A DNA stretch of 64,000 nt, taken from positions 186,001 through 250,000 of the forward strand of contig JACQAM010000003.1 in the NCBI GenBank assembly GCA_016194975.1, in the 5' to 3' direction. The DNA is from Bacteroidota bacterium. GTDB taxonomy: Bacteria > Bacteroidota > Bacteroidia > Palsa-965. Shown one piece after another: positions 32,809 through 41,743 of the stretch (the first letter of the stretch is position 1; each line of letters opens with the position of its first letter). Both the position numbers and the translations under genes were made by a program. The notes under the pieces were generated by a model. It searched no databases and was not told the origin of the DNA. It saw only the letters and a program-made list of their open reading frames with translations.

Positions 32809-35800
32809 ATGACCCTCAAACAAAACCGATCCCGAAAAATCAGAATACACACGTATTTATTCCTGCTTGCGACAATGTTATTGTCGCCGCGAGTGAATTT
32901 CGGGCAGACCATGTCTGTTCCTTCATCTTACATCACTCTCGGACAAAACGATTCATGTTTTGCATTTACGAGTTCAAATTCTGATAACTGGTTTAAGTTT
33001 ACCGCTCCACTTTCAGCGCTTGAATTTGATCTGAGTAATACCACTTCTTCCGGTTTCGATAGCGTTGCCTTCTGGAAATCTACCGGGGGTGATATTACTT
33101 TCGTGAATTCAGGAGTGAAAACCGGCGATGAAAATACGTTAGTTGATACAGCATTATCTACCGACAGTATTTATTGGATTTATGTTCGCAAGGTTGGTAC
33201 GGTAAGTTGTACGGCGAATAATTGTATTTCCTTCAAATCGTCTTTTATGGTTGTATTTTGCGGAACAGGATGTCCGTCGGTTTTGTATGATAGCACCAAC
33301 ACGTGCGAGTTAGTTTGTAATGGTGGCTTTGAGTATAATTATTTCAATCCAACGACTCTTAATAAACTTCTTTACGCTTGTCCCTGGCAAAGGCCTGCCT
33401 TTACAGGCACCATAATTTCCACTCCGGATTATTTTTCCAGTGACGGTGGAACTCCCGTTGATATTCCATCAAATAATTTTGGCTGGCAAAATTCGTACAC
33501 AAGTAACAGCGCGTTAAGCGATAGCGGCTATGCGGGCATCCTGTGTTATTGGGGTGGCGATTCCAACAATCCTGCCGATCCTGATTATAGAGAATACGTA
33601 TCGGAGCCGTTAATCTCCAATCTGCTTGCAGGAAAACAATACAAAATTTCTTTTCGTGTAAGTCTGGCCGATAAAGCTCAATGGGGTTCAAAAAATCTCG
33701 GAGCGTATCTTTCTTCTGGAATTCTAACGCAAAACAATGCGAACTTCATCAATGTCATACCACAAGTTGTAAATTCCTCATTCATTACTGATACAATGAA
33801 TTGGGTTCTTATTAGTGGAACTTATACTGCAACAGGAACCGAATCATGGATTACAATTGGTCAATTTACTTCAGATGCGGGTTCCGTTACACATTTTCAG
33901 ACCACAGGAGTAAACGGTTCATACTACTATATAGATGATGTTAGAATTGAACCGTATCCCGATTCGATTTTCGTTTCTGTAACTCCGAATCCGGTCTGTA
34001 ACGGAGATACTGTTCGGTTGATCGCGCAAACAAATGTTGCTAACGCTTATTTTTTCACATGGCTCGCCGATCCCATTGCTACCGGAGGATTGCTGACGAA
34101 TAATAACGATACTGTTTATGCGCTTCCGGGAGATACTGAAATTTATAAATCAATAATCCATCTTCCGAATTATTACGGGTGTACTATCAACGACACGACA
34201 AAACTGATTTGGCTTCCCGGCCCGAAAAATGTAAATGCCGGAACCAACCAAACGATTTGTCTCGGAAAATCTGCGACTCTTATGGGAACGCTGCAAGGAA
34301 CATACAACACCACTTCCTGGGCGACGATGAACAATCAGATCATTTGTACAAATTGTACGACGACAGTCGTTAATCCTTCAATGACCACGCAGTATATTTT
34401 CACTGCCACAAATACTGTTACCGGATGCAGTGATACTGATCGTGTTTGGATCATTGTCAATCCGCTTCACCCAAGTATTATTCTTCCTGTCGGCGGAGCC
34501 ACCACGTGTGCAGGGTGTTTGAACTTCACAACATCTCAAAGCTATTCTGCTTACAGTTGGTCTGCGAATACTTCTAACTCTTGTGACACTTGCAGCACGT
34601 TCCAGGTTTGTTACCCGCAGAATTTTAATCAGGTGAGTGCGCCGGTTTCTGTAAGTGTAACTGATTCTAACGGTTGTATGGGAAATGCTACGATTTATGT
34701 TCCCCCGTGCTGTGTATATAAAGGTTATCTCGATTCCACAATTTCAAATGACAGCACCTCGCATCTTCTGATTTCACATCCGGGATTACTTGTTTTTAAT
34801 GTCGTAAATCAATCATGGGATGCAGTCAACAGAAATTTTTCTATCAACGGAGTTTTAGTCATTGATCAGAAAACAAGATTCATTGGCTGCGATATATGGA
34901 TGGGGCCGAATGCAAAAATTATTATTCGTTCCGGAATAAGTTTTGAGCTTACCAAACAAGGGAACAGTGTTCATCCTACGCGGCTTTACGATGGATTGTG
35001 TGGGGAAATGTGGGATGGAATTTATGTTGACGGAACAAATCCTTTATCGGAACTGAAAGTGAATAAAGGAACGACGATTGAAGATGCAATGAATGCAATC
35101 GTTTCTACGCACGGCGGAAAATTCACTGTTGATGGAAGTAGTGGTCAGGTAAAATTGAATAAGAATTACATTGCTATTCTTATTCATCCTTATAATGGCA
35201 CTCATCCGGGGACAATCCGCAACACAATAATTTCATGTGATAAAAATGGCCAGTCGGGAGCAACTGTCGGTGTGTCGAATAACAGCGCTTTTCTTGATTC
35301 ACCATTCTCGGCTTCGGTTGGATACGCTGGAATTGTCATTGACACGGTGACGAATTTCACTATTGGTGATAGTACGCTTTACAGTTACCGCAATTTATTT
35401 GAGCGCACAACTTTCGGAGTTTACGCCGTACGATCAAATACGAATGTGTGGAATAATGATTTCCGTTATTTCACCGCGCCAACGCTCGCGCACGTTGCGC
35501 CTATTGGAGGAATCGCAGTTTATGCCACGAATACTTCGTTCGGAACATCAACTAATAAACTCACGGTGGGAAGAGCCGGTACAAAAAAAGCAGCGAATAT
35601 TTTTAAGTGGAGCAGTTATGGCGTTGAAGCAACCGCAGGAATGAATTTGAGTTGCGAGCGTAACAGGTTTGATTCCTGTTACGTGATCAGCATTTATTCT
35701 TTGGCAGATTACAATCGCACCATACTTGTGAATCTTGATACACTGCACGATTGCACAGGAACGAATATCAGTTGCGTTCAAACCAACAACAGCACGATCA

Positions 35801-37347
35801 CGATTTCCAACAACGTGATAAATGAAACGGCGAATCTCATTGCAAGTAATTTCGGGCAGACCGGAATTTATTGCGCGAACGCGATGGTCGCAACCACTCA
35901 CCTTGCCATTCAAAACAACAGCATCAAAAAAATGCGAAATGGAATTTGGGTGAGCCGCGTGAACAATGCGAAGATCACTGACAACGGGCCTATTACTTTT
36001 ATTGCCGGTCAACCGTATTCGGTGGCGCTGCCTGCAACAGGAATTCACATAGACCAATGCGTAAATGCGAAAGTGAGAAATAACAGGATCAAAAATACCG
36101 GGGCAGCAGTAAACACGAACAATACTATTTATGGAATTTATATTGAGAACTGCAAGAACGATACCATCACGCAGGATTCCTGCATCAATGTCGGAAGCGG
36201 AATTTTTCTCAAGGGTTCAGATAATCCTTCCTTACTTGCCTGTAACAAACTGAAAAATTGTTTCTACGGAATTAATTTCGGCAGAGTTGGCATCATCGAC
36301 AATCCTGTTTCATTGAACGATCAGATCCTTTTTGGAACTTCTCAAATTCCAACTTCAACAGGAAATGTTTGGACAGCTTCAATTCAAACTGATCTTGGTG
36401 GAAAAATTCAACAGATAAATGGAAATGGAATTCATTGGTATTACAATCCAACCAGCCCTACTTTTGGTCAAGTGGTTTTGGGTAGTTTTTATAATAGTAA
36501 TACAAGTGTAGGTGGTGTTGATCAATGCAGCAGTTTCCTTGCACCGGCTCCTGTTGGAAATATTGCATTGAGAGATTATTTGCTTTCAGGCATCTGCAAA
36601 AATCCGAGAACTTACGACACATTATCGGATGCCTACATTTATGATGCGCAGGTTTTCGCATACAGAATGCTTCATGATAATCCAGCGTGGCTTTCATTGG
36701 GAACAAGCGACGATGTTTACTATCAGAATTTCATGAACACCATGTTTAAATCAAACATCGAATATCTTGCTTATGCTGAAGATGCAATAGCTGCCGAAGA
36801 TTATTCAACTGCGGATGCTTATGTTGCAGCAGTACAAAGTTACGATCCGCAAACGCTGAGCATATTTGATCGCAACCGCGCAACTGTGATGCGTGTGTTT
36901 CTCAATACCTGGGCGAATGACGATTTCAATTTGTCTGACGCAGATCAAGGCACGCTTTATAACATTGCGAAACAGGGAATGATTTCCGGTGGAATGGGTG
37001 TAACTGATGCAAGAAATATGTTGGAAATAGAAATTCACGACAGCAGTAATGTTCGTGTTGCTTATCAACCGATTGAAAATTCTCAGGAAATAGCCGTAAG
37101 TCATGTGTTTCCGAATCCTACAACAGGAAAGTTTTCTTTTAACCTTGACCTTCCTGATGGACAAGACGGGCAAATGAATCTGTATGATCTCACAGGAAGG
37201 AGAGTCGCGGCATGGCAATTGGTAGGTGGCATTAGAACTTACACGTTTGATGCATCAAATCTGCCAAGCGGAACGTATATCTATTCCGTGATTTGTAACG
37301 GCGTTGCTATTTCAACAGGCCGATTGGTGATAATAAGACAAGAGTAA
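32809..37347 (+). CDS. Large secreted T9SS cargo protein with beta-helix region
   Basis: A 1512-residue protein. The signal peptide (KIRIHTYLFLLATMLLSPRV, N-FGQ) is followed by a beta-sandwich (about 35-160), a second domain opening CNGGFEYNYFNP and ending YYIDDVRIEPYP (about 170-385), and Ig/PKD-like segments (390-620). A right-handed parallel beta-helix follows (about 640-1170; repeated N-N-x-I-x-N turns such as TISNNVINET and AIQNNSIKKMRNGIWV). The C-terminal sorting domain starts VSHVFPNPTTGKFSF and ends GRLVIIRQE. It is a surface or released protein. The beta-helix suggests glycan binding or cleavage, but no catalytic residues could be assigned. Confidence 0.85.
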   Translation: MTLKQNRSRKIRIHTYLFLLATMLLSPRVNFGQTMSVPSSYITLGQNDSCFAFTSSNSDNWFKFTAPLSALEFDLSNTTSSGFDSVAFWKSTGGDITFVNSGVKTGDENTLVDTALSTDSIYWIYVRKVGTVSCTANNCISFKSSFMVVFCGTGCPSVLYDSTNTCELVCNGGFEYNYFNPTTLNKLLYACPWQRPAFTGTIISTPDYFSSDGGTPVDIPSNNFGWQNSYTSNSALSDSGYAGILCYWGGDSNNPADPDYREYVSEPLISNLLAGKQYKISFRVSLADKAQWGSKNLGAYLSSGILTQNNANFINVIPQVVNSSFITDTMNWVLISGTYTATGTESWITIGQFTSDAGSVTHFQTTGVNGSYYYIDDVRIEPYPDSIFVSVTPNPVCNGDTVRLIAQTNVANAYFFTWLADPIATGGLLTNNNDTVYALPGDTEIYKSIIHLPNYYGCTINDTTKLIWLPGPKNVNAGTNQTICLGKSATLMGTLQGTYNTTSWATMNNQIICTNCTTTVVNPSMTTQYIFTATNTVTGCSDTDRVWIIVNPLHPSIILPVGGATTCAGCLNFTTSQSYSAYSWSANTSNSCDTCSTFQVCYPQNFNQVSAPVSVSVTDSNGCMGNATIYVPPCCVYKGYLDSTISNDSTSHLLISHPGLLVFNVVNQSWDAVNRNFSINGVLVIDQKTRFIGCDIWMGPNAKIIIRSGISFELTKQGNSVHPTRLYDGLCGEMWDGIYVDGTNPLSELKVNKGTTIEDAMNAIVSTHGGKFTVDGSSGQVKLNKNYIAILIHPYNGTHPGTIRNTIISCDKNGQSGATVGVSNNSAFLDSPFSASVGYAGIVIDTVTNFTIGDSTLYSYRNLFERTTFGVYAVRSNTNVWNNDFRYFTAPTLAHVAPIGGIAVYATNTSFGTSTNKLTVGRAGTKKAANIFKWSSYGVEATAGMNLSCERNRFDSCYVISIYSLADYNRTILVNLDTLHDCTGTNISCVQTNNSTITISNNVINETANLIASNFGQTGIYCANAMVATTHLAIQNNSIKKMRNGIWVSRVNNAKITDNGPITFIAGQPYSVALPATGIHIDQCVNAKVRNNRIKNTGAAVNTNNTIYGIYIENCKNDTITQDSCINVGSGIFLKGSDNPSLLACNKLKNCFYGINFGRVGIIDNPVSLNDQILFGTSQIPTSTGNVWTASIQTDLGGKIQQINGNGIHWYYNPTSPTFGQVVLGSFYNSNTSVGGVDQCSSFLAPAPVGNIALRDYLLSGICKNPRTYDTLSDAYIYDAQVFAYRMLHDNPAWLSLGTSDDVYYQNFMNTMFKSNIEYLAYAEDAIAAEDYSTADAYVAAVQSYDPQTLSIFDRNRATVMRVFLNTWANDDFNLSDADQGTLYNIAKQGMISGGMGVTDARNMLEIEIHDSSNVRVAYQPIENSQEIAVSHVFPNPTTGKFSFNLDLPDGQDGQMNLYDLTGRRVAAWQLVGGIRTYTFDASNLPSGTYIYSVICNGVAISTGRLVIIRQE

Positions 37348-37355
37348 AACAGAGT

Positions 37356-37392
37356 CCCGCCCTTTTCATTTTGAGAAAAGGGCGGAATTTCT
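37356..37392 (+). terminator. Hairpin terminator after the large T9SS gene
   Basis: The stem ccgcccttttc/gagaaaagggcgg with a short loop is followed by aatttctt. It lies 9 bp after the stop. A degraded copy (cccgcctttgtt...gagggcag) precedes the second small cargo gene. Confidence 0.8.
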
Positions 37393-37400
37393 TAAATTTA
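37370..37400 (+). promoter_or_regulatory. Candidate Bacteroidota-type promoter overlapping the terminator
   Basis: TTTG (37370-37373), a 19-nt spacer and TAAATTTA (37393-37400) match the TTTG-N19-TAnnTTTG consensus except for the last base. The -7 box is only 4 bp from the ATG, so a transcript from here would be leaderless. The TTTG is not conserved at this spacing in the paralogue, so support is weak. Confidence 0.3.
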
Positions 37401-37404
37401 TTAA

Positions 37405-38370
37405 ATGAGAAAAGTTTTACTTGTTTGTTTTTTATTCTCTGCATCCGTTATGAATGCGCAGATGAATCTTGTTCCAAATGGAGATTTTGAGGATTCGGTA
37501 ATCTGTACAATGAGTAGCGGAGTAATGCCCGCTAACTGGTATCCTCCTTCATTTGGAAGTCCTGATTATTATGGCATTTATACTACGATAGCAGGTTGCA
37601 CGTTGGCGAATACATTTTGGGGGGGGGGGGGGATTCCTTTTGGCTATGGTTATCAGTGGCCACACTCAGGAACTCATTACGCAGGCTTTAATTCAGGAAT
37701 GAACGGACGAGAATACATGGCTGTCAAACTTGCAGATAGTTTGATGCCCGGAAAAAAATACTGTTTGGAATTTTACGTTTCATTGACTGAAAATTCGCAG
37801 ATGTCAAGCGATGGCTTAGGAATTAGTCTTAGTAATGATTCGATTCATTATTATCAGTATGGAGCAAGTCCTGTCCCAGGTTTAGTTTTTACCGCTGGCA
37901 ATCCAACAGGAAATCAGTTGGCTGATACTACAAATTGGATGATGGTTAGAGACAGTTTTATTGCTGTTGGGGGAGAAAAGTATCTCATGTTCGGCAATAT
38001 TAGATCAGATGCCCAAACCACTTTTGCTCCAACTGGAGTGACATCAGGAAATCCTTGCTACTACTACGTTGATGACATTTCTTTGTTCTTCTGCGATTCT
38101 ATTGACAGCGTTGTAGAACCTGTTTATTCTTCCTTCACTTTATTTCCGAATCCGTCTTCAGGCAATTTTCAGTTGACCGGAAATTTTCCCGCGGATGCAG
38201 TGTTTCATGTTTATGATTTGTTGGGGCAAGAAGTTTCTGAACCTGTTGAAATGCCAGAAGGAAATAAATCGGTTTCTGTTTCATTAAATCTTGCAGATGG
38301 AATTTATTTTTACAGAATTATTTCGGGGAAAGAGATTTTGCATGAGGAGAAAATCGTGATCGTGAAATAA
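37405..38370 (+). CDS. T9SS cargo protein with 14-G tract, paralogue A
   Basis: A 321-residue secreted protein. The signal peptide MRKVLLVCFLFSASVMNAQ leads into a jelly-roll-like domain (NLVPNGDFE at the start, YYYVDDISLFFC at the end) and a sorting domain (FTLFPNPSSGNFQL ... HEEKIVIVK). The central region carries fourteen consecutive G (37619-37632, read F-W-G-G-G-G-I). A change of one G would shift the frame before the sorting domain, so the gene may switch on and off. The first 86 bp and a 69-bp part of the 3' end are identical to the next cargo gene, while the middle differs. Confidence 0.82.
   Translation: MRKVLLVCFLFSASVMNAQMNLVPNGDFEDSVICTMSSGVMPANWYPPSFGSPDYYGIYTTIAGCTLANTFWGGGGIPFGYGYQWPHSGTHYAGFNSGMNGREYMAVKLADSLMPGKKYCLEFYVSLTENSQMSSDGLGISLSNDSIHYYQYGASPVPGLVFTAGNPTGNQLADTTNWMMVRDSFIAVGGEKYLMFGNIRSDAQTTFAPTGVTSGNPCYYYVDDISLFFCDSIDSVVEPVYSSFTLFPNPSSGNFQLTGNFPADAVFHVYDLLGQEVSEPVEMPEGNKSVSVSLNLADGIYFYRIISGKEILHEEKIVIVK
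37619..37632 (+). repeat. G14 homopolymer within a coding sequence
   Basis: Fourteen consecutive G lie about one fifth of the way into the cargo gene. Such tracts slip readily during replication. The frame shown is the open one. Confidence 0.9.
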
Positions 38371-38402
38371 TATTTTTCGGGTTCATTTTTTTAGAAAATC
38401 TC

Positions 38403-38451: not shown

Positions 38452-38517
38452 ATGAATATCCCGCCTTTGTTCTAAAACGAAGTCGAAGAATGAGGGCAGA
38501 TTTCTTAAATTTATTAA

Positions 38518-39462
38518 ATGAGAAAAGTTTTACTTGTTTGTTTTTTATTCTCTGCATCCGTTATGAATGCGCAGATGAATCTTGTACCTAACGGAGATTT
38601 TGAAACTCTAAGTAGTTGTCCTAATAATCAAGGAGAGTTGAATTTTGCAACACCGTGGTTTCAACCAGGGGGGTCCTCGCCTGATCTATATAATACTTGT
38701 GCACTTGTGAACTCAATGGCCATCCCACAAAATTGGACGGGGTTCCAAATGCCTCATTCTGGAAATGGATATGCGGGCTTCGCTGCTTTTGCTTATAACT
38801 ATGGTGATAATGTGAGAGAGTATATTGAAGTAAAATTGAGTGATACATTGGTGCAGGGAAAAAATTATTGCATTGAATTTTATATATCATTTGCAGATAG
38901 CTCTTTTTGGGCTGTTAATAGAGTTGGCGCATTATTATCCACACAACAGATAACTCAGACTCTCAATGACACAATTACTGCAACGCCGCAAATTGAGTAT
39001 TCTTCAGTGACAGTCATACAAGACACAGTCAACTGGATAAGAATTTCAGGAATTTATTTATCGGGGGGAGGAGAAAAATATCTCACGATAGGTAATTTTT
39101 ATCCGGATGATCAAACAGATACTTTGGGTAATTTGGGACCTAATCATTGGTGTTACTTTTATATAGATGATGTATCGGTTATTGATTGTGGCTGGTCAGG
39201 AATTCAATTTTATTCTTCTGAATTATTCAATATTTCACCCAATCCCTCCAATGGAAATTTTCAGCTTTCTGGTGTTTTTCCGTCACAGTCAGAAATTCAT
39301 TTTTATAATCTGCTCGGAGAGGAAGTTGAAAAAACTATTTCTATTCCCGAAGGGAATCAAACCATTCCTTTGGAATTAAATCTTGCAGATGGAATTTATT
39401 TTTACAGAATTATTTCGGGGAAAGAGATTTTGCATGAGGAGAAGATTGTGATTGTGAAATAA
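38518..39462 (+). CDS. T9SS cargo protein, paralogue B
   Basis: A 314-residue secreted protein with the same signal peptide as paralogue A at DNA level, a related but divergent middle (NLVPNGDFETLSSCPNNQGE; CYFYIDDVSVIDC) and a sorting domain (LFNISPNPSNGNFQL ... HEEKIVIVK). Where paralogue A has G14 this region has no long homopolymer. Identical ends around a variable core suggest exchange of middles or recent gene conversion of the ends. Role unknown; the jelly-roll-like core suggests ligand or glycan binding. Confidence 0.82.
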   Translation: MRKVLLVCFLFSASVMNAQMNLVPNGDFETLSSCPNNQGELNFATPWFQPGGSSPDLYNTCALVNSMAIPQNWTGFQMPHSGNGYAGFAAFAYNYGDNVREYIEVKLSDTLVQGKNYCIEFYISFADSSFWAVNRVGALLSTQQITQTLNDTITATPQIEYSSVTVIQDTVNWIRISGIYLSGGGEKYLTIGNFYPDDQTDTLGNLGPNHWCYFYIDDVSVIDCGWSGIQFYSSELFNISPNPSNGNFQLSGVFPSQSEIHFYNLLGEEVEKTISIPEGNQTIPLELNLADGIYFYRIISGKEILHEEKIVIVK

Positions 39463-39491
39463 TACAACCTCGTCTTTTACATTTTTTTGAT

Positions 39492-39541: not shown

Positions 39542-41743
39542 TCACACCCTCACTCCCACTACACAAACATCATCCACCTGCTCCGCGCTTCCTTTCCATT
39601 CGAGAAAAGCGTTCTCTATTTTCTCTCCCTGTTCTTTCATTGGTAAACCACTCACGGAAACCAGCAACTGTCCGAATTTTTTTGCGAGAAATTTCTTCCC
39701 CGTTTTCTCACCGAACTGGTCGGCGTAACCATCGGAAGATATCCAGCATTCGAAATTTTCTTCCATTTTAATTTCATGTTGCTCGAATGGAGGCCCATCC
39801 GTCTTTTTTTCGCCGGCTATGGAATAACGATCGCCGCGAATGGAATGAAATCCGTTTTTATCAGAATAATAGAACGGGCGTGACGCCCCGGAAAATAATA
39901 TTGTCCCCGCTTTTTTATCGATGCACACCAGCGCAACGTCCATTCCATCGCGCGTGTCGCGCGCACTTGCATCCTTGTTCAGCGAATTGATCACGAGCAC
40001 ATGAAGCTTCCCGAGAATATCAGACGGATCATGCATTTCATTTTCCTCGATGATCTTATTCAGCATGTTCAATCCAACTACGGAAACCAATGCACCCGGA
40101 ACTCCGTGCCCTGTGCAATCGGCAACAGCCACATAAATTCTTTCTGCTTTTTTTGCCATCCAGTAAAAATCGCCGCTCACAATATCTCTCGGGCGATTGA
40201 AAATAAAATAGTCGCTGCAGTTTTCTTTCAGAATTTTTTCATCGGGAAGAACGGATTGCTGTATCCTGCGCGCGTACGTGATGCTGTCGGTGATATCTTT
40301 ATTTTTTTCTGCGATGATCTTATTCTGCCCGGCGAGCATTTTATTCGTTTTCTTTTTCTGCCTGTTGCTCCGCAGCACGATAAGGATCACGAACAAAAGC
40401 AGCAAAGATCCTGCAGTGAGCCCGTAATTGAAAACTTTTTCTTTCTCTTTGTCCTTCTGCAATAATTCCTGTTCCTTCTGCAACATATCGATCGTGCTTT
40501 GTTTTTTTGTCGATTCATATTTCACTTCCAGTTCATCTACCTGGCGCATGCTTTCACTTTTATAAACGGAATCATTAAGCGAAACCCGTTCGCGGAGCGT
40601 ATTCAGTGCATCTTTATATCGTCCTGCATTTTCGTAGATGTCAACATAAGCACCAAGAATAGAAAGACGAAAACCGGGAACAGAAAACGCATTGTTTATT
40701 TTTTTCGCGTCTTCCATCAACGCGAGCGCAGAATCATTTTTGCCGGCGAGACTTAACCCTGTTGCAAAATTGCAGGTGAAATCAAGTTTGTGGTCATCGT
40801 CGATGTAAGCGGAAAGATCCATTGACTTCCTGTAAAACTCAAGCGCCTTTGCTGCATTTTTCTGGGCGTAGTAAACATTGCCGATATTATTAAAACATTC
40901 CGCCATTCCCGCTGAATCGTTCAACTCTTCTCTTATTTTCAATGACCGATCGTAGGAGTAAACTGCGCTGTCGAATTTCTGCAATTCATAATACGCAATG
41001 CCCATACTGTTCACATTACCTGCCTGCATCCTGAGATTTCCTGTTTCCGTTTCCAACAAATCTACTTTCATAAAAAACTCCAGCGCTTTTTCCGGTTTGT
41101 TCATGTCGATGTAGGTGTTGCCGATATTCACAAGCGTATTCGCAATTGAATTTTTATTTCCTTCTTTTTCCTTCAATGGTAATGCACGAAAATAATATTC
41201 CAGCGATTTTTTGTACTCCCCTTTCGCTTCGTAAATGGAACCGAGATTGCTCATCGTGGCAGCCATGCCGGATGAATCATGCAACTCTTCACGGATAAAC
41301 AATGCGTCATTGTAATCATCGAGCGCATCCGATAATTTATTTTTCATTTTCGCCACGCTTCCGAGATTGTTGAGCACATTCCCCTGCAGAAAACGAAGGT
41401 TCGATGATTTGGCCAGCTTCAATGCATCATAAAAATATTTCTGCGCCGAATCTGCATCTCCATTAACGACGAGGAAAACATTCCCGACAGAAACAAGCGC
41501 CATCCCTTTTTTGTAATCATCATCAACGCGTGCAGAGAGAGTCATTGCTTCCCGCGCATACTTCATGCTTTTTTCACCATCGAGGTTCAATTCGAATTTT
41601 GCCAGTGAAAGAAGGCGTGTAAGACGTAAAGAATCGTCCGACTTCTGCGCGAGCAGCTTCTCAAGACTGTCGGCTTTGTTTTTCTGCGCATCAAGAGTGA
41701 TGGCAGCCAATAACAAAATGAAAAAAAATAAGTGGCGTAACAT
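39542..41743 (-). CDS. TPR sensor with SpoIIE (PP2C) phosphatase output
   Basis: A 733-residue protein: signal peptide (LFFFILLLAAITLDAQ), about eight TPR repeats (roughly 40-380; AATMSNLGSIYEAKGEYKKS, NTLVNIGNTYIDMNKPEKA), a membrane segment (about 440-458, LTAGSLLLLFVILIVL), a coiled coil and a cytoplasmic SpoIIE domain (about 500-731). The phosphatase motifs are GDFYWMAKK, VAVADCTGHGVPGALVS, DGMDVALVCID and SSDGYADQFG. It probably dephosphorylates an anti-sigma-factor antagonist or similar target in response to a periplasmic signal. A homologous output domain is in the gene at 59076. Confidence 0.9.
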   Translation of the reverse strand: MLRHLFFFILLLAAITLDAQKNKADSLEKLLAQKSDDSLRLTRLLSLAKFELNLDGEKSMKYAREAMTLSARVDDDYKKGMALVSVGNVFLVVNGDADSAQKYFYDALKLAKSSNLRFLQGNVLNNLGSVAKMKNKLSDALDDYNDALFIREELHDSSGMAATMSNLGSIYEAKGEYKKSLEYYFRALPLKEKEGNKNSIANTLVNIGNTYIDMNKPEKALEFFMKVDLLETETGNLRMQAGNVNSMGIAYYELQKFDSAVYSYDRSLKIREELNDSAGMAECFNNIGNVYYAQKNAAKALEFYRKSMDLSAYIDDDHKLDFTCNFATGLSLAGKNDSALALMEDAKKINNAFSVPGFRLSILGAYVDIYENAGRYKDALNTLRERVSLNDSVYKSESMRQVDELEVKYESTKKQSTIDMLQKEQELLQKDKEKEKVFNYGLTAGSLLLLFVILIVLRSNRQKKKTNKMLAGQNKIIAEKNKDITDSITYARRIQQSVLPDEKILKENCSDYFIFNRPRDIVSGDFYWMAKKAERIYVAVADCTGHGVPGALVSVVGLNMLNKIIEENEMHDPSDILGKLHVLVINSLNKDASARDTRDGMDVALVCIDKKAGTILFSGASRPFYYSDKNGFHSIRGDRYSIAGEKKTDGPPFEQHEIKMEENFECWISSDGYADQFGEKTGKKFLAKKFGQLLVSVSGLPMKEQGEKIENAFLEWKGSAEQVDDVCVVGVRV

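Follow-up and report, generated by a model that had tools for sequence, protein, structure and literature searches.

A fourteen-guanine tract in a type IX cargo gene of a Bacteroidota bacterium as a candidate slipped-strand switch

The locus and its encoded protein

We analyzed a 64-kb stretch of a Bacteroidota genome (this whole stretch is hereafter called the window), in which a gene for a cargo protein of the type IX secretion system (T9SS) carries an unbroken run of 14 G residues (G14). The features of the locus are listed in Table 1. Direct reading of the sequence gave exactly the tract position reported in the first-pass annotation, and its placement in the second fifth of the gene also holds, since G14 occupies codons 72–76 of the 321-aa reading frame. 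G14 is the sole run of G or C of at least seven within the window. Its length far exceeds chance: under a first-order Markov model, runs of at least 14 are expected 4e-5 times per window and 0.003 times per 4.1-Mb genome. Four successive GGG codons are moreover unlikely to reflect codon choice alone, because GGG makes up 10.9% of the glycine codons in the window. By frame arithmetic alone, G12, G13, G15 and G16 each lead to a stop at codons 94–99 and to a product without the C-terminal domain, and G11 and G17 (±3) retain this domain. The earlier claim that any length change other than a multiple of three removes the sorting domain was thus borne out for changes of −2, −1, +1 and +2. The neighboring tandem paralogue had rightly been described as tract-free, its longest G runs being 6.

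Table 1. Features of the G14 locus in the window, and the second tract family of the same genome (G000; positions of the latter are given as contig:position).
Feature	Position	Strand	Remarks
T9SS cargo gene, upstream	32809..37347	+	1512 aa; contains a copy of the NLVPNxxFE domain
Perfect 11-bp inverted repeat	37357..37385	+	CCGCCCTTTTC / GAAAAGGGCGG; read directly from the sequence
5' direct repeat	37387..37490	+	104 nt, 97%, partner 38500-38603; leader, start and signal-peptide region
T9SS cargo gene with G14 tract	37405..38370	+	321 aa; now in frame (ON)
N-terminal 'NLVPNxxFE' domain	37459..38100	+	predicted beta-sandwich; structure model, Foldseek, VIA-align
G14 tract	37619..37632	+	proposed slippage switch; end of TGG (Trp72), then four GGG codons (Gly73-76)
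3' direct repeat	38134..38372	+	239 nt, 75%, partner 39226-39464; spans the sorting domain
T9SS type A sorting domain	38140..38361	+	C-terminal, residues 246-319; PF18962, TIGR04183
Tandem paralogue	38518..39462	+	314-aa T9SS cargo, about 50% identical
Five-copy C-tract family	G000 C1:1018, C1:11610, C8:116, C12:157904, C22:261145		L111-L115, L311-L322

The sorting domain of the tract protein scored above the curated cut-offs of both PF18962 (E 3.6e-9) and TIGR04183 (E 1.4e-10). The genome of the window also encodes the T9SS translocon protein SprA (2617.8 bits, 2479-aa frame) and at least 150 T9SS cargo genes. In the predicted model, the protein starts with ATGAGAAAAG and forms a helix at residues 2–14, followed by AQMNLVPN; a putative Sec signal peptide is seen in MRKVLLVCFLFSASVMNAQ. 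The model of the NLVPNxxFE-domain protein (mean pLDDT 82.5) suggests a beta-sandwich fold for the domain, similar to that of CBM4/16/22 modules and also to the gingipain cleaved-adhesin domain; Pfam has no name for this domain. A Foldseek match was obtained at an E-value of about 1e-5, and alignment with VIA-align gave Z 12.8 (rmsd 2.8, 135 aligned residues) for CBM16-1 (3oea) and Z 11.5 for the Kgp K2 adhesin. The likeness to CBM4, CBM16 and CBM22 modules lies in the N-terminal fold (Z up to 12.8), but the tract protein differs from them in staying below the Pfam cut-offs: the window protein matched no CBM family above these cut-offs, and one of 36 relatives reached CBM_4_9 with a sub-threshold E-value of 0.007. 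A PDB sequence search matched the sorting domain alone. Gingipain/Kgp cleaved-adhesin cargo has the beta-sandwich (Z 11.2–11.5) and the C-terminal T9SS domain in common with the tract protein; however, the latter is devoid of a protease domain and unrelated by Pfam, and its gene contains an intragenic poly-G. Judged by the fold, the NLVPNxxFE domain may bind glycans, and the protein is presumably displayed on the cell surface or released. The residues encoded by the tract fall within a loop of the predicted model (residues 66–78, pLDDT<50), and a low-confidence loop of this type would be the kind of site that tolerates polyglycine.

The inverted repeat lies between the stop of the upstream cargo gene and the start of the tract gene, and its position suggests a terminator- or attenuator-like element. 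Downstream of the tandem pair, a gene on the opposite strand (39542-41743) faces the cargo cluster. It encodes a 733-aa protein which, by appearance only, combines TPR-like repeats with a C-terminal SpoIIE/PP2C-like phosphatase-type sequence.

Long tracts in the same genome and genus

Pattern searches over the 4.1-Mb genome of the window identified four runs of G or C of at least 9, two of which exceed 10 (G14 and a G13). The G13 tract (contig C7, 9432-9444) is the second-longest of the genome and is in frame. Its carrier is 41% identical to the tract gene, is the next-closest paralogue after the tandem copy, and also has a large cargo gene immediately upstream. Both tracts encode the same loop, with TFWGGGGIP in the window and AHWGGGGYN on contig C7. 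A G10 tract on contig C22 is likewise in frame, in a gene for a 494-aa cargo protein with a T9SS domain. The fourth tract, a run of nine C on contig C1, lies in the signal-peptide region of a gene from a different exported-type family. All four tracts are therefore in genes for predicted exported proteins, and three of the four carriers have a confirmed T9SS domain (p 0.001–0.007, given that cargo makes up 6.6–12.5% of the genome). The stricter statement that all four reside in T9SS cargo was rejected, as Pfam and NCBIfam identified no sorting domain in the gene on contig C1. The genome also encodes MutL, so slippage could be damped. Mismatch repair is, however, also kept in other bacteria that switch by simple sequence repeats (SSRs).

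A second set of tracts was found in a five-copy family of exported type, in which a C-tract begins 10 nt past the A of the start codon, within the signal peptide. Two copies carry C7 and are ON; the other three carry C8, C8 and C9 and are OFF. All three OFF copies have long downstream frames, which in two of them lack an upstream start. It should be noted that most copies of this family sit at contig ends. Another genome of the genus (G001) has a matching start-codon arrangement, with C9 ON and C10 OFF, the frame of C10 being worked out by hand. No T9SS domain was detected with Pfam and NCBIfam in two copies from the genome of the window. These genes point to the use of slippage loci in the genus. 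A related gene in the same genome (G000 C16:205646; L069, L321) carries a G8 run in the 5' leader, some 27 nt before its start, and this run could affect the initiation of transcription or translation.

Homologues of the window gene from the same genus contain no tract, and no G run of five or more was found in these genes. The W-GGG motif is nonetheless kept in them, encoded as TGG GGC GGC GGG or TGG GGC GGC GGT. Since the homologues spell this motif with GGC codons and GGG is scarce, the homopolymer is a feature of the DNA rather than of the protein. Across whole genomes of the genus, only 3 of about 26 tracts of at least 9 are in cargo genes; as such tracts mostly lie outside cargo, we propose no genome-wide cargo rule for all species. 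Several other genomes also have tracts of this length outside surface genes. The enrichment described below applies to the NLVPNxxFE domain family, and not to the whole genome of every species. In one genome (G005), two neighboring genes for large T9SS cargo proteins (C123:5508 and C123:11504; L245) each contain a G9 run with identical flanks.

Recurrence of tracts and of ON and OFF alleles across the class

Members of the NLVPNxxFE domain family were gathered from the named genomes plus 149 genomes of the class; after deduplication, 249 coding sequences of the domain remained (174 kb). The family ran up to 20 or more paralogues per genome. As a control we used 441 kb of coding DNA, consisting of 93 kb from the rest of the same genes and 348 kb of other ORFs; counts from flanking DNA were set aside in favor of this coding control because the flanks contained overlapping loci. 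The density of G runs in the domain falls geometrically for lengths 3 to 8 (579, 147, 33, 6.9, 1.7 and 1.15 per 100 kb) and then climbs to 4.6 per 100 kb at lengths of at least 9. Nine G or C runs of at least 9 were present in the 174 kb of domain DNA versus none in the control, and synonymous shuffling predicted 0.73 such runs in the domain. For a spread of the nine runs in proportion to sequence length, the p-value was about 1e-5, or 1.4e-4 when the two copies from the genome of the window were excluded. Most family members are tract-free (9 of 199 anchored copies carry a tract). The tract sites vary by lineage, from 17 to 85 residues past NLVPN, and these differing positions imply that tracts arose repeatedly. 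Upstream of one gene of the NLVPNxxFE cargo family (L193, JAUICI010000089.1, position 1789), an intergenic G9 run was observed that could be a promoter-spacing switch.

Ten domain genes were found with a tract of at least 9, five in frame and five out of frame; this comparison runs across species, with one genome per species, and the window gene itself is ON. The ON genes are those with G14 in the window and G13 in the same genome, L188 (G10), L371 (C9) and L401 (G12 and G9). The OFF genes are L284 (G10), L301/L416 (G10), L185 (G13), L359/L409 (G9) and L404 (G10). The downstream frames of the OFF genes are intact (123–285 aa), and Pfam confirmed that the one in L404 includes the sorting domain. 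Among copies anchored at the mature N-terminus, the frame is broken in 4 of 9 with a tract versus 3 of 190 without one (Fisher p 6.5e-5). The clearest replicate is the 2.7-Mb genome G017, which is unrelated to that of the window: it has exactly two runs of at least 9, both in NLVPNxxFE-family paralogues, in the same loop and OFF. Two apparent frameshifts (L147 and L168) were rejected as adjacent genes or shifted match boundaries. The gene L401 (G118 C182:1-1500) is a single domain gene in which both of the long tracts are in frame.

Proposed switching and alternative explanations

We consider it probable (about 0.77), from these sequence comparisons, that G14 is a simple-sequence contingency locus for slipped-strand phase variation of a CBM-like T9SS surface protein. 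The first-pass annotation had proposed phase variation as a candidate role. This reading is now supported by the G13 paralogue, the domain enrichment, the coexistence of ON and OFF alleles and the C-tract family, switching itself being our interpretation of these patterns. Slipped-strand mispairing during replication would change the number of G residues. At 14, or at lengths differing from it by three, the ribosome would cross a flexible polyglycine loop and produce the full CBM-like protein, which its T9SS sorting domain would direct to export, followed by display or release. Any other length would bring a stop within about 25 codons and leave no sortable protein. The population would then be a heritable and reversible mix of cells that are ON or OFF for this surface protein, and the G13 paralogue would switch independently. 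Because the T9SS sorting signal is C-terminal, any upstream frameshift also blocks export, which would make type IX cargo well suited to this type of switching. The rate and reversibility of slippage, surface location, glycan binding and a benefit of the switch are all elements that we infer.

The tract could instead be the outcome of a mutational ratchet, in which the W-GGG loop seeds TGGGG..., slippage and codon drift lengthen the run, and a disordered loop tolerates it with no role in switching. The conservation of W-GGG in homologues, the low-confidence, disordered loop of the model, and the fact that the G14 and G13 tracts equal the loop length of homologues, with no net expansion, all fit this explanation. 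Yet homologues encode the same peptide with GGC codons, in other species the tracts have arisen elsewhere in the protein, at sites that lack a W-GGG motif, nine long runs were seen against the 0.73 expected by synonymous shuffling, and so unstable a run in a constantly needed gene would face counter-selection; we regard the ratchet as unlikely. The OFF copies might also be ordinary decaying pseudogenes in which the tract is merely a mutation hot spot without selected switching, as large paralogue families with fast turnover tolerate gene loss. Decay of this kind sits poorly with OFF copies that show no second lesion and keep their downstream frames of 123–285 aa, and with the rarity of broken copies among those without a tract (3 of 190), which makes it a quite unlikely account.

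An error of assembly or sequencing, such that the true tract length differs or the poly-G stems from the instrument, has to be weighed since the assembly is a draft (28 contigs) and homopolymers are error-prone. We judge this very improbable: unique flanks on either side of the tract continue one reading frame, G14 and G13 are both exactly in frame, the long runs are limited to particular gene families rather than genome-wide, and the pattern recurs in assemblies of unrelated projects. An error of ±1 would alter the ON/OFF call alone and leave a long tract in place. With transcriptional or ribosomal slippage at the poly-G run, a single DNA length could in principle give both the full-length and the truncated protein in constant proportions, and copies in the OFF frame would then still give some protein. 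Homopolymer runs can indeed cause polymerase slippage, as reviewed for A/T runs (PMC3711429). Long G runs are, however, classically DNA contingency loci, and both in-frame and out-of-frame states were found in the DNA; such recoding therefore has a very low probability in our view.

Slipped-strand phase variation at poly-G and poly-C contingency loci occurs in Campylobacter, Helicobacter, Neisseria and Treponema (PMC11868660). The loci of these genera resemble the present ones in having a G tract of at least 9 in an ORF for a surface or secreted protein, truncation by ±1 changes, and homologues in both frames. The window case, a proposed switch, differs from Campylobacter-type loci in its Bacteroidota host, in secretion by the T9SS and in an essential C-terminal signal. 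In Bacteroidota, phase variation by DNA inversion has been described for the capsule promoters of B. fragilis and for invertible SusC/SusD genes (cited in PMC11868660). These systems belong to the same phylum and also diversify the surface repertoire, but they act by recombination whereas slippage is proposed here. A 2025 review frames phase variation in Bacteroides as inversion (PMC11868660); in a term search of this review, neither secretion systems nor Flavobacteria came up. Our literature search, which covered homopolymers, Bacteroidetes and the T9SS in connection with phase variation, returned no described case in T9SS cargo, which agrees with the initial remark that this use is not known to be described, although absence from the literature searched is no proof of absence. 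The locus is probably an established kind of switch in a setting that is new, as that literature describes no slippage switch in T9SS cargo.

We give roughly even odds to a broader view, namely that environmental Bacteroidota repeatedly and independently evolve poly-G loci in CBM-like T9SS cargo, along with start-codon C-tract loci in another exported family, so that each cell would present a stochastic surface combination, which would amount to a 'phasome' of the type IX secretome built on SSRs. Were type IX cargo to switch by slippage, the large secretome of the phylum (at least 150 cargo genes in the genome of the window) would be partly stochastic, which would bear on variation in attachment, in glycan use and in exposure to phages and grazers. 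The main known form of phase variation in Bacteroidota is DNA inversion.

As a separate observation, the tandem paralogues of the window are alike at both their 5' and 3' ends, a repeat layout that would permit a recombinational swap of their middles.
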